Shown here piece by piece: positions 3,940 to 12,266 of a stretch of 64,000 nt of DNA. The translations under genes were made by a program, and so were the position numbers. The stretch covers positions 310,001-374,000 of the forward strand of contig CP019454.1 of assembly GCA_002951815.1 (NCBI GenBank), read 5' to 3'. Positions within the stretch are counted from its first letter, which is position 1. Every line of letters starts with the position of its first letter. The notes under the pieces are model-generated. The model was not told the DNA's origin. It worked only from the letters and a program-made list of their open reading frames with translations, and did not search any database. This DNA comes from Sulfobacillus thermotolerans. GTDB lineage: Bacteria > Bacillota > Sulfobacillia > Sulfobacillales > Sulfobacillaceae.

Positions 3940-4674
3940 CTATGATAATGACCACATGCCTAAAGGATTAGCCGCGCTATCGATATCCATGCCAGGAATA
4001 TCGCAGACCGAAACCTGATGAACATACTGCCAGAGATGAGCAAAGGACAAAAATTCTTGGGGACAAGGCGGCGGTGTATGCGGCGCCTTAATTCGGCCCC
4101 CTGTTACCCAATACAATACGGCCGCGTTGACTCCGACCAATTCATGAATGCGTTTGAGCTGCGACGTCGATGAATAGACGCCTGGCACATAGCCGCTGTC
4201 GGCAACGGTTTGGATCCATGTGTCGACATAAGTGAGCCAGGTTTCAAGGGGCGTGATTTGTTGGGGCTCAAGATTAAGATAAATGGCGGTATGTCGGGGC
4301 TGTGAGACCTGTTGGGCTAAGGCGGCCGCTTCTTGGCCATCATGACGTCCTTGTTCTACGGACTGGATGCCACATGAAAAACGGCGCACCGCATTGGCGC
4401 CAACGTAAATGCTGACCAACCATAATCCGGCGGCAGATAGAGCCTGTGCCTCCCTTAGAGAAAGCGCTGTGAACTGGTAGCAGGGCCCTCCTAAATAGCG
4501 TCCCACAAAGGAATAGCCATGCTGTTTTAAACAAGGGCCTACGGCACTTAAATCTACGTCATTGTCGACCCCATTAAGACAAGATGGATGAGGACGTCGA
4601 CACAAAATCTGGGGGCCGTGTCCCCGCCATAATTTCTGGCGATCTGTTGGAGCTAAGGCGATGCGTTGCGTCAT
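3940..4674 (-). CDS. DUF1906 (Rv2525c-like) glycoside-hydrolase-like protein
   Basis: 244 aa with the pattern of the DUF1906/Rv2525c-like TIM-barrel family: an opening GVDND segment (about residue 35), FVGRYLGG, a central YLNLEPQQ strand where related proteins have acidic barrel residues, GYVPGVYSS and a closing LWQYVHQVSVCDIPGMDID. Members are often secreted and act on, or bind, the cell wall; no clear signal peptide is visible. ATG 4674 has AAGGAGG 7 nt upstream. It lies about 100 nt upstream of the glutamate-synthase-like gene on the same strand and may share its transcript. Catalysis is not proven for the family. Confidence 0.75.
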   Translation of the reverse strand: MTQRIALAPTDRQKLWRGHGPQILCRRPHPSCLNGVDNDVDLSAVGPCLKQHGYSFVGRYLGGPCYQFTALSLREAQALSAAGLWLVSIYVGANAVRRFSCGIQSVEQGRHDGQEAAALAQQVSQPRHTAIYLNLEPQQITPLETWLTYVDTWIQTVADSGYVPGVYSSTSQLKRIHELVGVNAAVLYWVTGGRIKAPHTPPPCPQEFLSFAHLWQYVHQVSVCDIPGMDIDSAANPLGMWSLS

Positions 4675-4721: not shown

Positions 4722-4755
4722 GAAAGAAAAAAGCCAGAGGGGTGATGCCCTCTGG
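4722..4755 (-). terminator. Rho-independent terminator of the 54-codon gene
   Basis: An 8-bp stem CCAGAGGG/CCCTCTGG with a 6-nt loop is followed on the minus strand by CTTTTTTCTTTCC. It lies about 94 nt after the stop of the small gene at 4849 and just before the DUF1906 gene, so the small gene probably forms its own transcript. Confidence 0.8.
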
Positions 4756-4848
4756 TTTTGGTACTGACCCGGAAGCCTATCGGCAATGTCTTTTAGGAAT
4801 CGGCGCTCCCCCCTGCACGCAAGTCCTCAAGACACTCCTCTAGTCGTG

Positions 4849-5013
4849 TTACGCATGCATCATATGACTAGAAGAAGAGCAGCTCCTACGGTGCGAGTGG
4901 CAAGGCCGTTGCTGGGACAGCAAGAGCCACCATATCAAAAAACTGGGTTCACGCCGGCAGTGGCGGCGGCAGTGATGCGAGTGACTGTAGGAATGTCGCG
5001 ACGAGTCGCTCAT
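4849..5013 (-). CDS. 54-aa His/Ser/Arg/Cys-rich small protein
   Basis: This short frame reads ATG at 5013 to TAA at 4849. AAAGGAGGTG sits about 8 nt before the ATG, and a strong terminator follows. The predicted peptide starts MSDSSRHSYSHSHHCRRHC, has a short hydrophobic core (FLIWWLLL, residues 25-32) and ends in a Cys/His/Ser-rich tail (RPCHSHRRSCSSSSHMMHA). It matches no family I recognise. The composition recalls small spore-coat or metal-binding peptides. Upstream, CATGAATAT resembles a sporulation-sigma -10 (CATANNNTA). The ribosome site and terminator are seen; a spore role is inference. Confidence 0.5.
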   Translation of the reverse strand: MSDSSRHSYSHSHHCRRHCRREPSFLIWWLLLSQQRPCHSHRRSCSSSSHMMHA

Positions 5014-5237
5014 TGGGGAACACCTCCTTTCCGGGAAAAATCTGGTACACTCGCATGATATTCATGGGCGACAACAGTGTGACGGTTGAATAGGACCGTT
5101 TTATTGCGACAGGAGGATGCAGAAGCCCCTATTCCTCTCCTAAGTTTAGTGTTCGGAAAAGGACGAGCACCGCCGATTGTTGCGCTCCGTTGGCTTACGC
5201 TGATGTCGGGTAGCCCGCACAGGAGAGTTCTTGATGG

Positions 5238-5255
5238 CTCCGAAGCTTTTCGGAG
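5238..5255. repeat. Small inverted repeat next to the IS110 remnant
   Basis: CTCCGAA-gctt-TTCGGAG is a perfect 7-bp hairpin about 25 nt before the degenerate transposase start. It may be part of the left end of the decayed element. No other gene can be supported between 5014 and 5280. Confidence 0.4.
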
Positions 5256-5280
5256 GATCTAACCGAGGAGAGGTGAGCGT

Positions 5281-5446
5281 CATGGATCTCGAGGGGTCGT
5301 CCCACAAGGAGCGGGGTGGGACGTGCATAAGAAGATTGTTGTCGTCACCGTATTGACCCCGATGGTGACCTGCGAGCCGGGCGTTTGGGACTCTCACGCA
5401 GGCTCTCTTGGCCTTAGCCGATTGGCTTCAATGGATGTTGGCCTAA
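5281..5446 (+). pseudogene. IS110-family transposase remnant (frameshifted 5' end)
   Basis: Three reading frames must be joined to recover the start of an IS110-type transposase. The frame from ATG 5281 gives HKERGG. A second frame gives VHKKIVVVTVLTP (about 5322-5360), like the opening beta strand with the first catalytic Asp region of the DEDD fold (GLDVHKKxVVVTV). A third frame gives SRAFGTLTQALLALADWLQ (5375-5431) and ends at TAA 5444. Only the first 50 or so residues of the roughly 350-aa family length remain. GAGGAGAGG precedes the ATG. The indels and truncation mean it cannot encode an active enzyme. Confidence 0.65.
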
Positions 5447-5559
5447 ATTGTGGACACCTCGAATTGAGACAAGACCAAGCGGCGGTGACGAGTCGACTAC
5501 TGACTCGGGTGTTGAAATCCGGTTACGCCAAGATGCGACTCCCGAACTGCGCATGGGAA

Positions 5560-5960
5560 GGATGAGGACAACGAACCGACTGCAGAACCTCTGCGGGTGG
5601 GTCAAGCCCATGCTGTGGCTTGTGCATTGGGCAACGTGGGACCAGAACCTAATCATCCCAAATCGCACGCACCGCTTTCGCACCATCGATCACCACGAGC
5701 AACCCGTCCGCGACCGTCAGGCCGCGAGTGGTGAAATTCTGCCATAACGCCGTGACCACGGTGTGATTTTCTGTGGCCCCTTCCACGAATTCCCAGACGC
5801 ATTTGTGATCATCCGCATCCATCCCTAAGGCCCCAACGACCAGATGGTCGGCCACACGTCACCCATCGATCATCACCACGACCCATGGTCGACCGTCCAA
5901 TCGGCGTTGCCAGAAGCGGTCCAACGCTTGCTGAGTCACTTGGATAAAACAGAAGGAATG
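5560..5960 (-). pseudogene. IS256 (mutator-type) transposase remnant with internal stops
   Basis: Read right to left, the frame gives FIQVTQQALDRFWQRRLDG, then VVVMIDG interrupted by TGA (5859-5861), then RVADHLVVGALGMDADDHK, EGATENHTVVTAL and GLLVVIDGAKAVRAIWDD, ended by TAG (5649-5651). After that the same frame continues with RCPMHKPQHGLDPPAEV, which matches the conserved RCQxHKxRNVLDHLPE stretch. These are the central catalytic segments of IS256 transposases, including two of the DDE acidic positions (MIDG, VIDGAK). Both ends of the gene and any terminal repeats are gone. This is an old, inactive insertion. Confidence 0.8.
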
Positions 5961-6082
5961 ACCAAGAGGGTCAGCCGGTGCACCTTTTGCCAAAGGCTCA
6001 CATATTTTACAGCATCACCACAAATCAGCGCTTCCCCTTGGGCGCACTATCCAGTTTAGTTCTGAAATAAGGAGGCACTTCC

Positions 6083-6499
6083 GTGAGTTATAATTCCAGC
6101 ATGCCATTCGAAGATATCTTGCCGCTGCTCCTGTTGAACAATCAACGCGACCTGTTGCCCCTATTGCTACTACTAGGGGAACGCGGGGAATCTTCCCGGT
6201 CCGAAAGCTGTTCATCGGACGATTATCCTGTGCCCTCGAGTTTTAATGCGTACTTGGCTTCATTAGTGGGGGATGTTGTGCGTGTCAGTGTGTCTAACGC
6301 TGTGGACAATGCCTTGACGCTAGTCGGTAATCTCGCTGAAGTGGGGACCGACTTCATCGTGTTGCGCGATGCGACAGCTGCGGGGGTTCCATTGGGGCTC
6401 AAAGACCGGGTGATTATCCCCATTTCGAATGTGGTCGGGATTGATCGGGTTCCGTTTCTTGAGGGCATTTTGCCCCTATTGCTGCGCTTTCGGTCGTAA
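6083..6499 (+). CDS. DUF2642-like protein with Leu-rich segments
   Basis: 138 aa from a GTG 7 nt after AAGGAGG. The N-terminus holds short runs of leucine (LPLLLLNN, LLPLLLLLGE), then a Ser/Cys-rich linker and a C-terminal module: FNAYLASLVGDVVRVSV, LTLVGNLAEVGTDFIVLRD, RVIIPISNVVGI. That module resembles DUF2642-type small beta barrels of Bacillus spore-associated proteins (iGkxVxVxT..G.L.xVgxDyIvl...IPxxxI). The extreme C-terminus repeats the leucine motif (ILPLLLRF). A spore-surface role is inference. It faces the gene for the disordered protein, with a 13-bp inverted repeat between them. Confidence 0.65.
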   Translation: MSYNSSMPFEDILPLLLLNNQRDLLPLLLLLGERGESSRSESCSSDDYPVPSSFNAYLASLVGDVVRVSVSNAVDNALTLVGNLAEVGTDFIVLRDATAAGVPLGLKDRVIIPISNVVGIDRVPFLEGILPLLLRFRS

Positions 6500-6601: not shown

Positions 6602-7090
6602 TTAACGCAGAAGATATTGACGCAGAACACTGTGTAAATCGGGTCGTGCATTGGGACGGGTCAAGATGTCTGCAAAAGCTGTCGTAGGACGGGGCTCAGA
6701 GGCCTCACTAGAGGAGGCGGGCGCTTGTGCGCCAATGTCTTGATGCAGCAAGGTGTCAATCGTTTCGAACGCGGAGGCGAGCGCATCCAGGGTCCGAATC
6801 AAATGGCGGAGGTCCTCCACCAACGGCACCGCAGGATTGGGAATGGTGGGCGGCGTCTGTATCTCGTCCGTAGGCATTTCCGGCTCAGGGTCAGTAGACT
6901 CCGGTTCCGTTGGCGCTACTGGTTCCGACGGGCTGCCTTGACGGCTTTCTTCCACGGGGACAGAGGGTTCTGGCACCGTGCGCTCGCTCCAACGTCCCCG
7001 GAGCGGGGCATGGTCGGTGGAAAGATTCCCCTCTTTGGGAAACGCCATGGTGTGGGGCTTTGTGGCTTCATCCGGTCCATTGTTTGGCAT
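6602..7090 (-). CDS. Proline/glutamate-rich hypothetical protein
   Basis: About 162 aa, no recognised family. Residues 20-90 are rich in Pro, Glu, Ser and Thr (PEPSVPVEES, PTEPESTDPEPEMPTDE) and probably disordered. Then comes a predicted amphipathic helix (LVEDLRHLIRTLDALASAFETIDTLL) and a basic end (RPDLHSVLRQYLLR). ATG at 7090 lies about 9 nt after AAGGA; an ATG at 7099 overlaps that site and is less likely. It is convergent with the DUF2642-like gene and divergent from the HipA-like gene, so it may share a regulatory region with the latter. The helix may be a coiled-coil partner-binding element. Confidence 0.55.
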   Translation of the reverse strand: MPNNGPDEATKPHTMAFPKEGNLSTDHAPLRGRWSERTVPEPSVPVEESRQGSPSEPVAPTEPESTDPEPEMPTDEIQTPPTIPNPAVPLVEDLRHLIRTLDALASAFETIDTLLHQDIGAQAPASSSEASEPRPTTAFADILTRPNARPDLHSVLRQYLLR

Positions 7091-7174
7091 CAGCACCATT
7101 CCTTTCTCGTCCTTATAGGTATGCGGACTCCTGACACTCTATGACACCCCGGCTTGGAAAAGGAGACCTACAAT

Positions 7175-8089
7175 ATGATCGCAGTATGGCGCAATGTTCC
7201 GGTGGTTGAGGCGGTAGGATACGTGGGGAGTGGTGGACACGGCGGATCCCGCCCGGTTCTATTGCGGACCCACAGTGGGGAGATTGTGCACGTCAAGCTG
7301 CAATTAAATCCGCAATCCAACCGGAGTTTAGCCGGCGACTGGATTGGTACCTTACTCGGGCAAGCCTTAGACGCGCCTTTTTTGGCGGTTCGGTTGGTGC
7401 GGATTGAGCACGATCAACTGGGGCATTTACCCTTTTTGGTGCGCTCTCGATGGCATCCGGGCTTGCAATTTGGGACCCAGTTTTTAAAGGACGCGGAACC
7501 AGTCAGGCCTAGTACCGTGGGGACTTTGCATAATCTCGACAAATTGCCCTTAGTGGCCTTGATGGAGTCATGGTTGTTCAATTTAGACTTGAAATACTCG
7601 CATATTTTGGCGCACCATCAACGCCTCGTTGTCACCGATCACGGCTTTATCTTTCCTTATGGCCCCAAATGGCTTCCCTCTGATTTGCATCGCTTTCGTC
7701 GTCAGTTTCCCGCCGTCAAGCCTTTAACGGTGCTGGCCATGGCAGCGCCTCAGCGCTTTGATTTTACCCCGGCACTTGATGCCATCATGGCGGTTACGCG
7801 TCAGGATCTCATCGACTTGGTCGATTCGGTGCCGCCTGATTGGGGCCTGTCATCTCACCGCAAGGATGCGATTGTGTCGTTTCTCCTCTTTCGGCAAAGT
7901 CGTCTCGTCCGTGTGGTGGAGTATTTGGAACCCTTGTGGAATCAAGACAAGGGGCAAGAGGCTCGTGTCGTTGAGAACATCGATTTACCAGACGAAAACA
8001 CCGAACCCTATGAGAATGACAGCCCAGAAGCAGTAGTGGCAAGAGAGGACGAGGGCGATGGCGATCAAGATCGTATCCACGGGGCATGA
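7175..8089 (+). CDS. HipA-like kinase-domain protein
   Basis: 304 aa. The start ATG is 8 nt after AAAGGAGA. The N-lobe has GGHGGSRPVLLRT followed by a strand with a candidate ATP-contacting Lys (VHVKLQLNP), then a GDWIGTLLGQALDAP helix, as in HipA-like domains. The catalytic loop reads NLDLKYSHIL, where the family has NxDRxxxN: the Asp remains but the later Asn is His. The metal-binding Asp is kept in VTDHGFIFP. The last 30 residues are very acidic. Activity may therefore be changed or lost. It overlaps the next small gene by 32 nt, and no HipB-like antitoxin lies next to it, so a role outside toxin-antitoxin function is possible. Confidence 0.7.
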   Translation: MIAVWRNVPVVEAVGYVGSGGHGGSRPVLLRTHSGEIVHVKLQLNPQSNRSLAGDWIGTLLGQALDAPFLAVRLVRIEHDQLGHLPFLVRSRWHPGLQFGTQFLKDAEPVRPSTVGTLHNLDKLPLVALMESWLFNLDLKYSHILAHHQRLVVTDHGFIFPYGPKWLPSDLHRFRRQFPAVKPLTVLAMAAPQRFDFTPALDAIMAVTRQDLIDLVDSVPPDWGLSSHRKDAIVSFLLFRQSRLVRVVEYLEPLWNQDKGQEARVVENIDLPDENTEPYENDSPEAVVAREDEGDGDQDRIHGA

Positions 8090-8422: not shown

Positions 8423-9565
8423 TTAGGCGGGCGGCGATTTCGGGTGATGTCGTCGCCAGCTAGTGACGATGAGTGTCAAAAGGATGGACAAACTAATAAC
8501 GACGAAGCTGTAGCCGAGATCGATAGGGTCAAAGAAATCGACCACTAAATGGGTGGATTGTGTCGGGGTATCGATAAAGCAGGACCCCACCATCATGATG
8601 ATGGCGATAATAAGAGTAGTGGGCATCGTGCTCTTGTAGGACCCTGTAATGAGACGGGAGAAATTGATGCCCATGCAAAAGAGGTTGCTGGCGAGGTAAA
8701 AGACCATACTGCCGGTCCATAGCAGCAAAATAATGAGTCCTGGCCGGCTTAAGTAAAAGGTCGAGACATTCAAGTTGCTGAGTACGTAGACGAGTGGCCA
8801 CCGTAACAAGATGACCGCTTGAGGGCCTAAGGTGCCGACGGTAATGAGATAGACTAAGATCACCACCAATGTTTGAAAGGCAATGGCCCCTAAGGTGACA
8901 CGGCGAATCATGACGATATTCTGGGGGCGGATAAAATGCGATAACGTGGCAGTGACTTCATTTTGTTTCCATAAAAACCACGTGGCTACAATCCCTTGGC
9001 CTACAGGACCGGTATCTTTGAGAGCATGGGGCAAAAAAGCCCACCACGCCTCTACGTGGCCTAGACCCATCCCGGCTAAAATAAAAAACGTGAAGGCAAA
9101 GACGGGAAACCAAAACTGCACATTGCGAGCAAAATTCGAAAGGGAACGCGAAGCGAACCAAGCGGCTTCGGCAATAATCAATCCCTTCATTATCCATAAA
9201 GGTGTGGCAGGATAAAATGACGCGGCCAGCATTTGGGTGAATAAGGTCAAGACGGCCGTATCCAATACGAGGCATAACACGGCATGGATCAGCAGTAAAA
9301 TCCACCGCAAGGGTCCCCATGCGTATCCTAGGCGGTCGACCAAAATGCCGGGAGGTGTGAGCTGAATCCAGATTAACCCCAGTCCTGTCATGCCCAATGC
9401 CAAACAGATGCTGCCTACGACCGCCCAATCCGATTGTGATTGGGCGGCGGTCATGAGGGCTTGCGGCCAAATGTACACCGCGCCGGTGACAATGGACGAC
9501 GCCACCAAGAAGAAATATTCGAGCGATCCTATCGGTTCAACCGTAGACTCGACAAAACGGCTCAT
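8423..9565 (-). CDS. Spore germination receptor subunit B (GerAB family permease)
   Basis: 380 aa with about ten membrane segments in the pattern of GerAB/YndE proteins, a branch of the amino-acid/polyamine/organocation transporters. It starts SRFVESTVEPIGSLEYFFLVAS and later has WFLWKQNEVTATLSHFIRPQ, typical of the family. In spores this inner-membrane subunit is thought to bind the germinant. The ATG at 9565 overlaps the TGA of the gerC gene (ATGA), which selects this start over an in-frame ATG 28 codons upstream. It is the last gene of an A-C-B operon. The germinant cannot be predicted. Confidence 0.88.
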   Translation of the reverse strand: MSRFVESTVEPIGSLEYFFLVASSIVTGAVYIWPQALMTAAQSQSDWAVVGSICLALGMTGLGLIWIQLTPPGILVDRLGYAWGPLRWILLLIHAVLCLVLDTAVLTLFTQMLAASFYPATPLWIMKGLIIAEAAWFASRSLSNFARNVQFWFPVFAFTFFILAGMGLGHVEAWWAFLPHALKDTGPVGQGIVATWFLWKQNEVTATLSHFIRPQNIVMIRRVTLGAIAFQTLVVILVYLITVGTLGPQAVILLRWPLVYVLSNLNVSTFYLSRPGLIILLLWTGSMVFYLASNLFCMGINFSRLITGSYKSTMPTTLIIAIIMMVGSCFIDTPTQSTHLVVDFFDPIDLGYSFVVISLSILLTLIVTSWRRHHPKSPPA

Positions 9566-10662
9566 CGCATTAATCCCTCCCCATAGAGGGTGACAACGAC
9601 CGTTAACGTGGCATGAATGGGGAGAAACCCTGCGTGGGGATGAAACCACGCTTCGCTGCGGTCGTATCCAAAGGGATCCGTATGGGTTTTATTTGCATAG
9701 GCAATAGTGGACAGACATAAGTGCAAAAGGGTTTGTTCGGCACGGTGCGAGATGGAGCGTTCGTCTTGCAACGTCACCCGATTTTGACCCGAAATATCTT
9801 CAATGAAGCCTTTGACGTGCAAGGTCTCACGCACGTTGATAGCGCTTGCCGTCTGAAATGTGTGAAGGGACCTTGTGTCGCTGATCCGGCTGATGCTCAC
9901 GGTTTGTCCATGCCACGGAACGGACAACGTTAGACGTTGCACCTTGCCAGTTAGGTAGCCGAATCCTTGGGTCTGTAGGGGTGAATACAGTACCGGTGGT
10001 CCGCCACTGGCCGGATAGACGTCGATTTGGCGCACGGTTAAGCTCTGCTGTTTCAACTCCACGATGGGTACATAAGGACTAATACCTTGCGAAACCGCAC
10101 TGGACCAGAATTTCCACCCGCGCATGCCAAGTCGTATGGGGGAGCACCGAATGCAGTTAAAATACGCGGCGAGCGCAATGCGGGGCGCAACGATTTGAGG
10201 AGACACATAGTTCATATATTCGGCTAAGGGGCGACCGTCCGCGCCCATCACCCAAAAAGTTTTAGGAATGGTGCCCGCGGCATTGATGGCGTTAATTTGC
10301 GGCCACAGCTGGCGAAAAGTGAGCCGATTATTCCAGATGATTCCCTGAAGCTGTCCCAAATAAAGGGCGCGGGCTGATTTTTCTTGGGCGTGCATGACGG
10401 CATCCGCGAAATTAGGAGCCATCACAGCAATATCGTAATATTCCTCATCGGGTTTTATCGTACTCAAAGCACCAGGAGTTAAGGTGACGTTGGGGAACAC
10501 GAATCGCCAATGGTATTGCCCAGGTATTTTGGAAGCGCGAATACTCAGCATCAACACAATCCCTTGGTGGTCAATGGGCTTAGAATCCCAGCAACCCGTC
10601 AATAGAAAAAGCAGTGGCGTCACGAAAATGGCGATGCGCCATTTCCTTATCAACCGGCTCAC
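9562..10662 (-). CDS. Spore germination receptor lipoprotein subunit C (GerAC family)
   Basis: 366 aa. The N-terminus has a basic start, a hydrophobic stretch and the lipobox LLTGC (Cys about residue 23), followed by WDSKPIDHQGIVLMLSI, the signature opening of GerAC proteins (CWDxxEI). Three alpha/beta domains follow in the family; the C-terminal helix is near LHLCLSTIAYANKTHTDPFGYD. It should be lipidated at the outer face of the spore inner membrane, in a complex with subunits A and B. Both ends overlap their neighbours by 4 nt, giving tight translational coupling. Confidence 0.9.
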   Translation of the reverse strand: MSRLIRKWRIAIFVTPLLFLLTGCWDSKPIDHQGIVLMLSIRASKIPGQYHWRFVFPNVTLTPGALSTIKPDEEYYDIAVMAPNFADAVMHAQEKSARALYLGQLQGIIWNNRLTFRQLWPQINAINAAGTIPKTFWVMGADGRPLAEYMNYVSPQIVAPRIALAAYFNCIRCSPIRLGMRGWKFWSSAVSQGISPYVPIVELKQQSLTVRQIDVYPASGGPPVLYSPLQTQGFGYLTGKVQRLTLSVPWHGQTVSISRISDTRSLHTFQTASAINVRETLHVKGFIEDISGQNRVTLQDERSISHRAEQTLLHLCLSTIAYANKTHTDPFGYDRSEAWFHPHAGFLPIHATLTVVVTLYGEGLMR

Positions 10663-12266
10663 GGCCGTTCCTTTTGGGTTTGACGTAAGTGGGGAATTTC
10701 TTGGACACTGCCGTGACGGCTTAACACCGTGTTGAGCGGGCGAGCTGAGCTGGGGCGTTGCCGCAACATGTCATAGGGCGCGCGCACAAGATAGTCTTTA
10801 AAGTCTTTTATGCGAAATGGGGCGTAGGGCACAAAATAGGGCGTGCCAAATGACGTCATCTGGATCAGGGAGCCAATGAGCGTCATCGTTAGCAGCACGA
10901 TCCCAAAGATGCCAAAGATGTCGGCAGTGACTAAAAGCGCCATATTGATTAAACGCCAGGATCCGGTCAAATCGTAGACAGGCCCGGTGTAAAAGCTCAG
11001 AGCGGTCAGCGTGATGATGACGATGATTTGAGGACTGACAAAACCGGCCTTAACCACAGCCGTGCCGACGACAATCGCTCCAATGATGCCAATGGTGGTG
11101 CCCATGGGTTTCGGGAGACGCAAAGAGGCTTCCCGTAGGATTTCTATAATGATGACCATTAGCACGGCTTCTGCGAAAGGCGAAAAAGGCAGCGCCGCAT
11201 GGCTTCCAAGCGTTATGGCCAGCAAGGGTGCGGGGACCAAATTGGTATTCACTTGAGTCAGGGCAATGTACAGCGCGGGGAAGTAGACCCCCAAAATCCA
11301 CCCTAGCAGACGAATAATGCGTACGAACGAGCTATCGTACCACACTTCTGCGTAGTCCATGGACGTGCGGTAAAAATCGGCTAGGGGAGCAGGAGCAATC
11401 AGCACAAAAGGATCGCCATCGACCAAGATCAGAATTTTTCCTTCCAAAAGGCGCCAACATGCTACATCGACACGTTCTGTTGAACGCATGGTCGGAAATA
11501 TGGACCGGGGATGATCACGAATGAGACCCGAAATCATGGTGGCATTAGCCCGGCCTGAAATTTTGACTTGTTCCAACCGTGCGATTCCCGTTTCGACGAG
11601 AGCCGGATTGGTTAGGCCGTCGAGATAGGCTATAGCCACCGGGGTATGCTGGCGTTCGCCCAAAACCATTTGATGAAAGCGCAAGGATGGGTCTAAGAGG
11701 CGTTGCCGTAGTTGGTTCATCTGGGTCAAGAGCACTTCGTTGAAGGCATCTTCCGGCCCTCTCACACCAATTTCGGTCTGCGGACGCGAGATCGCCCGTT
11801 GTTTATAGGTGACGGTGTCCACGATCCAAACTTTTGGAAAACCTGGGGCAAAGATCAGCGTGTTGCCCGCGGCTAAGGCTCGGATGATGGTATCCCAAGA
11901 ATCTTCAGCGTGAATATGGCCAGGAGTTAAGGTGTTTTCGCCCCACGACGCCGGATCCTCATGGGTTGTTAACAGAGGAGCCACAATATCCTGATCGACC
12001 ATTTGCGTATCGGATAACCCGTCGATGCTGGCTATTAAGACTTTTTCAGGGGCACATGCGGGCACTTGCAGCCACCGCAAGAGGACATCCGGGCTGGTGC
12101 CAAACCCTGATTTGATTCGGTTGTAAGCGGCTTGGACGTTTGGGGTGTAATGCGTTAATGCTAGGGGGCCTTCACTTTGCAGAGCAAGCCAGGCTTCTAG
12201 GGTTTGCAATAAATGCTTGGCAAGGGCTTGAATATCGCGCAGAACCGCTTGATCGTCATAAGCCAA
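10659..12266 (-). CDS. Spore germination receptor subunit A (GerAA/SpoVAF family)
   Basis: 535 aa, read from TTG 12266 about 8 nt after GAGGTGA. The N-terminal soluble half contains KVLIASIDGLSDTQMVDQDIV and a NTLIFAPGFPKVWIVDT segment, then ISRPQTEIGVRGPEDAFNE, the family signature. The C-terminal half has four to five membrane segments and a GTPYFVPYAPFRIKDFKD tail. Together with subunits B and C it forms the nutrient-sensing germinant receptor. First gene of the operon, 65 nt downstream of the Na/Pi transporter start-side intergenic region. Confidence 0.92.
   Translation of the reverse strand: MAYDDQAVLRDIQALAKHLLQTLEAWLALQSEGPLALTHYTPNVQAAYNRIKSGFGTSPDVLLRWLQVPACAPEKVLIASIDGLSDTQMVDQDIVAPLLTTHEDPASWGENTLTPGHIHAEDSWDTIIRALAAGNTLIFAPGFPKVWIVDTVTYKQRAISRPQTEIGVRGPEDAFNEVLLTQMNQLRQRLLDPSLRFHQMVLGERQHTPVAIAYLDGLTNPALVETGIARLEQVKISGRANATMISGLIRDHPRSIFPTMRSTERVDVACWRLLEGKILILVDGDPFVLIAPAPLADFYRTSMDYAEVWYDSSFVRIIRLLGWILGVYFPALYIALTQVNTNLVPAPLLAITLGSHAALPFSPFAEAVLMVIIIEILREASLRLPKPMGTTIGIIGAIVVGTAVVKAGFVSPQIIVIITLTALSFYTGPVYDLTGSWRLINMALLVTADIFGIFGIVLLTMTLIGSLIQMTSFGTPYFVPYAPFRIKDFKDYLVRAPYDMLRQRPSSARPLNTVLSRHGSVQEIPHLRQTQKERP

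Follow-up and report, generated by a model that had tools for sequence, protein, structure and literature searches.

A minus-strand frame of 54 codons in the genome of Sulfobacillus thermotolerans is, as read from its sequence, almost certainly a protein-coding gene. It belongs to a lineage-specific and previously unnamed family of microproteins in acid-loving spore-formers, whose genes lie beside the gene for LPLL138, a 138-aa protein with a predicted Sm-like domain, and near a HipA-like kinase gene. This linkage is new beyond the first-pass annotation of the DNA. We consider it probable that the microprotein is expressed late in the mother cell in a sigma-K-type manner and, with LPLL138, forms part of the structure of the spore coat or crust.

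The spore coats of organisms beyond Bacillus and Clostridium are poorly known, and a literature search for Sulfobacillus and spore coat returned one hit, a mention in passing. The locus described here provides a concrete and testable entry to the way in which an acidophilic lineage with uses in bioleaching assembles its spore surface, and it connects sporulation with a HipA-like kinase and with a fold of the Sm-like kind. The window is the whole stretch of DNA analysed, 64,000 nucleotides long, and corresponds to bases 310,001-374,000 of a genome with one contig (3,317,203 bp). The features discussed are collected in Table 1.

Table 1. Position and description of the features of the microprotein locus in the window
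Feature	Position	Strand	Description
Microprotein gene	4849-5013	-	54 aa, rich in His, Arg, Ser and Cys; ATG start, 54 codons and TAA stop, MSDSSRHSYSHSHHCRRHCRREPSFLIWWLLLSQQRPCHSHRRSCSSSSHMMHA; FLIWWLLL core
Shine-Dalgarno sequence of microprotein gene	5021-5030	-	AAAGGAGGTG; 10/10 match, 7 bases 5' of the ATG
Intrinsic terminator-like hairpin of microprotein gene	4734-4755	-	8-bp stem, then T tract CTTTTTTCTT
3'-UTR element of microprotein gene	4796-4831	-	CTTGAGGACTTGCGTGCAGGGGGGAGCGCCGATTCC; conserved in G001
Promoter-like site of microprotein gene	5054-5082	-	TCACA-N14-GAATATCATG; sigma-K-like consensus match 10/12
Sigma-K-like promoter of LPLL138 (putative)	5980-6009	+	GCACC-N15-ACATATTTTA; 11/12, equalled by 0.28% of background tiles
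LPLL138 gene	6083-6499	+	138 aa; N-terminus with two Leu-rich segments, then a Ser/acidic linker and a predicted Sm-like domain
Gene for 165-aa hydrophilic protein	6602-7099	-	between LPLL138 and the kinase-like gene
HipA_2-like kinase gene	7175-8089	+	PF20613 match just below the cut-off; same neighbourhood as LPLL138
gerA-type germination operon	8423-12266	-	GerAA, GerAC and GerAB-like (PF03323, PF25198/PF05504, PF03845)

A conserved coding frame with its own expression signals

The first-pass annotation had proposed a minus-strand frame with a strong Shine-Dalgarno sequence and a terminator, and the frame was found where it had placed it, with both signals beside it. The nearest relative, a second species of the genus (G001), carries a 60-aa orthologue at the same place with 79-80% amino acid identity (E 4.5e-16). 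The Shine-Dalgarno sequence is unchanged in G001, and an 18-bp stem occupies the place equivalent to the terminator. Indels inside the frame keep the reading frame, and most nucleotide differences fall in third positions (14, 6 and 30 differences at codon positions 1, 2 and 3). In other orthologous pairs of the family dN is well below dS (for example 0 and 0.16, 0.025 and 0.73, 0.095 and 0.70). This is the pattern of purifying selection on a conserved reading frame. Lack of a conserved frame in related strains had been named in advance as evidence against the gene; G001 has the frame. The antisense 90-aa frame (4786-5058, plus strand) was rejected as a real gene, having no family match and with the codon bias lying on the sense frame.

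RNA elements and an RNA reading of the transcript

The region of the 3'-UTR element shows 89% identity over 53 nt in G001, above that of the coding region. An Rfam scan in and around the microprotein gene, including this element, gave no match. A 24-nt element, AATCNGCGCTNCCCCNTGNNCGCA, occurs at 4798-4821 and 6023-6046 (plus strand), the only two copies in the genome by a pattern derived from these same two copies. One site falls in the 3' UTR of the microprotein gene, in antisense, the other in the LPLL138 leader, and both are strongly conserved in G001. Pairing between this 3' UTR and the LPLL138 leader was considered and rejected; the predicted duplex energy is unexceptional against shuffled sequences (7/500 and 14/500 as good) and also against other tiles of the window.

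Could the transcript work mainly as RNA, the frame being incidental? When G000 is compared with G001, the flanks of the gene on both the 5' and the 3' side show higher conservation than the frame, and the 24-nt element common to the peptide 3' UTR and the LPLL138 leader would suit such a function. Set against this, the codon-position bias, the frame-preserving indels and the spread of the protein family over seven genera that do not have flanks in common render the RNA reading extremely improbable.

A microprotein family linked to LPLL138

The LPLL138 neighbourhoods of 17 genomes (345 kb in total) were screened mechanically for ORFs of 25-110 codons that combined a Shine-Dalgarno match of 5 or more, an H/R/S/C/Y content of 40% or higher and an uninterrupted run of five L/I/V/F/M/W residues, with first-order random sequence as the control. 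The screen recovered 22 ORFs, against a mean of 0.2 expected in 345 kb of random sequence. All lie near LPLL138, the window's microprotein gene among them, with one or two per genome in 17 of the 17 genomes that encode full-length LPLL138. The microprotein frame thus stands beyond chance, because its orthologue in G001 keeps the frame and because such ORFs exceed expectation so widely. Where a genome has two copies (G003, G004, G022, G024 and G026), the peptides are arranged in tandem with LPLL138 downstream on the same strand.

A profile of the 22 members was searched against 61 whole genomes, a partly circular comparison, and its matches at E < 1e-3 fell nowhere but at LPLL138 loci, in the same 17 genomes that carry that gene. 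With the window's own genus left out of the profile, the microprotein frame scored E 1.1e-4 in a search of 9,712 frames and was the best of the window, where no other frame fell below E 0.5. Leave-one-genus-out profiles placed the right frame on top in nearly every locus and missed the divergent, weak members of G029 and G015. A weak family-like frame was also seen just 5' of the G005 peptide (L082:7510-7647, plus strand; held-out profile E 0.03), perhaps a second, diverged copy.

Family members are 38-67 aa long and share a basic His/Arg/Ser N-terminus, a hydrophobic core of 7-9 residues, polar residues and a Ser/Arg-rich tail. Some of the members have a (V/L/P)P-x-(I/V)-R-S-like motif at the C-terminus. 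The core of the window's member is replaced by LLLLLLLL in many others, and the G029 peptide has a Ser-His run. Leu and His codons are used in mixture, unlike what a simple nucleotide repeat would give. AlphaFold2 predicts one short helix in the window's microprotein (residues 24-33) with low confidence (pLDDT 65).

No fitting family was found for the microproteins in Pfam or NCBIfam, which bears out the first-pass annotation in its statement that no known family matched. They are thus a conserved addition missing from the curated libraries searched. Plasmid and viral collections held no relatives, no sequence tie to named coat proteins was detected, and a literature search for a matching small coat protein found none. 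The YjcZ-type sporulation proteins of Bacillus are very short, with a hydrophobic stretch and a sporulation context, features that the microproteins share; the microproteins differ in their polar His/Arg/Ser flanks and in matching no NCBIfam or Pfam entry.

The 54 residues of the window's member include 9 His and 4 Cys, and it could be a small peptide that binds or buffers metals in a metal-loving acidophile, a role that may or may not be tied to spores. The host is described as extremely metal-resistant in the title of PMC7409299. Metal binding had been offered earlier as one option, and the composition keeps it possible; since 6 of the 22 members lack Cys, however, it probably does not define the family. 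His is reduced to three residues in two members, while the basic, hydrophobic and Ser-Arg layout is kept, and the promoters and neighbourhood are sporulation-like. We therefore find metal handling as the main role quite unlikely.

Small sporulation regulators exist, and a short hydrophobic core with basic flanks would be in keeping with a regulatory or membrane-associated microprotein, one that, like SpoVM or CmpA, helps to localise or time assembly and is not itself structural. A core of 7-9 residues is, however, too short for a membrane span, and the rapidly changing Ser/Arg/His tails appear structural; a regulatory role is unlikely.

LPLL138 and the neighbouring genes

Full-length LPLL138 is encoded in 17 of 61 genomes, and 154 genomes of the class, when searched, added just partial paralogues and one weak distant match. 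The Leu-rich N-terminal segments read EDLLPLLLL and RDLLPLLLLLG. The C-terminal domain is confidently modelled by AlphaFold2 as one helix and five strands (pLDDT about 90), and the best Foldseek matches of this model are all Sm/LSm proteins, with E values as low as 9e-5 and a TM to target near 0.7. The domain is therefore predicted to adopt the Sm fold, a helix with a five-stranded barrel. LPLL138 differs from the Sm/LSm proteins in its additional Leu-rich and Ser/acidic N-terminus and in its sequence, which matched nothing in Pfam or NCBIfam and nothing significant among PDB sequences (best E 0.36).

The microprotein gene is syntenic with LPLL138, the gene for the 165-aa protein and the HipA_2-like gene. 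Homologues of the 165-aa protein stand at the equivalent place in eight other loci. All 13 kinase-like neighbours match PF20613 (best E 6.7e-12); the window's protein scores 26.1 bits, just below the 27-bit Pfam gathering cut-off. Lys K41, Asp D138 and Asp-His-Gly 155-157 (D155-H-G) are invariant among them, as in HipA_2-like kinases, and the HipA-like protein is thus consistent with a kinase fold. The LPLL138-linked member is distinct in sitting among spore genes.

The occurrence of a HipA-like fold beside small proteins recalls toxin-antitoxin or peptide-signalling units, and the kinase-like gene and the peptides might form one that has nothing to do with spores. None of the neighbours examined was noted as HipB-like, though, and sigma-K-like sites precede LPLL138 while gerA adjoins the locus in the window. 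Such a unit is very unlikely.

On the other side of the microprotein gene, a gene at 3940-4674 (minus strand) encodes a 244-aa Rv2525c-like glycoside hydrolase. Its G001 counterpart is 663 aa long with two peptidoglycan-binding domains.

Sigma-K-like promoters and the link to sporulation

The 110 nt 5' of each gene were scored at 12 positions against the sigma-K consensus published for B. subtilis (KCACM / GCATANNNTA, as given in PMC3416734), with 110-nt tiles as background. The score of the site before the microprotein gene is reached by 2.4% of background tiles. Both boxes are identical in G001, and the form GTCA[CT]-N-TGAATANNATG is present before five further peptides. The same site can equally be read as a 9/12 sigma-70-type promoter, of which 0.7 would be expected by chance in the region. 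These two readings leave the promoter type ambiguous from sequence alone. No strict B. subtilis sigma-E pattern was found 5' of the gene.

Across the family, sigma-K-like sites of at least 10/12 precede 11 of the 22 peptides (0.54 expected; as the genomes are related, the count overstates the evidence), and several members have no recognisable site. Sites of at least 11/12 precede 6 of the 17 LPLL138 genes, against 0.05 expected, in related genomes that are not independent. Sigma-K/E/G-type factors are present in the window's genome. The earlier proposal of a real, sporulation-linked gene is well supported by the conservation of the frame, the sigma-K-like sites of the family and the spore-germination neighbours.

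A proposed role at the spore surface

The microprotein would most likely be made late in sporulation, in the mother cell, from a sigma-K-type promoter, and would probably join LPLL138 as a structural part of the coat or crust of the spore. The spore coat is our best inference for its location. LPLL138 is complementary to the microproteins, with its Leu-rich segments, its Ser/acidic linker and an Sm-like fold of a kind that forms oligomers; this design suggests that the two touch directly, by way of the Leu cores and of their opposite charges. The Ser-rich tails of the microproteins may be substrates of the HipA-like kinase encoded alongside.

The arrangement is reminiscent of the CotB/CotG/CotH coat phosphorylation module of B. 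subtilis (PMC7821199), whose clustered genes encode a kinase, a coat protein rich in Ser and a basic protein rich in Ser and Arg. The LPLL138 locus likewise groups genes for a protein of kinase fold and for Ser-rich and basic Ser/Arg-rich disordered proteins. The kinase-like partner is, however, of the HipA_2 type with no CotH-family match, and the microproteins are very small, have a Leu core and show no Ser/Lys/Arg tandem repeats in the alignment. No sequence match was found between the proteins of the LPLL138 locus and CotB, CotG or CotH, which are thus not homologous by this test. A wider proposal is that Sulfobacillus and its relatives separately evolved a spore-surface phosphorylation module, unrelated to CotH/CotB/CotG, with a HipA-type kinase, an oligomeric Sm-fold scaffold, Leu-core micropeptides and possible cross-talk between the 3' end of the peptide mRNA and the scaffold leader. 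We hold this to be a speculative and rather doubtful extension.

Sequence between the microprotein gene and LPLL138

The interval from the microprotein gene to LPLL138 (5100-5980) holds about 0.76 kb more sequence than in G001. The extra sequence before LPLL138 is possibly a decayed insertion; no transposase family was recognised in it, and the sole match was a sub-threshold one to DUF6409. Five species of the genus (L079, L080, L081, L082 and L085) have an inverted repeat of the type CCGGACCTTAGG...CCTTAGGTCCGG, perhaps an attenuator or a terminator, that separates the peptide gene from LPLL138.
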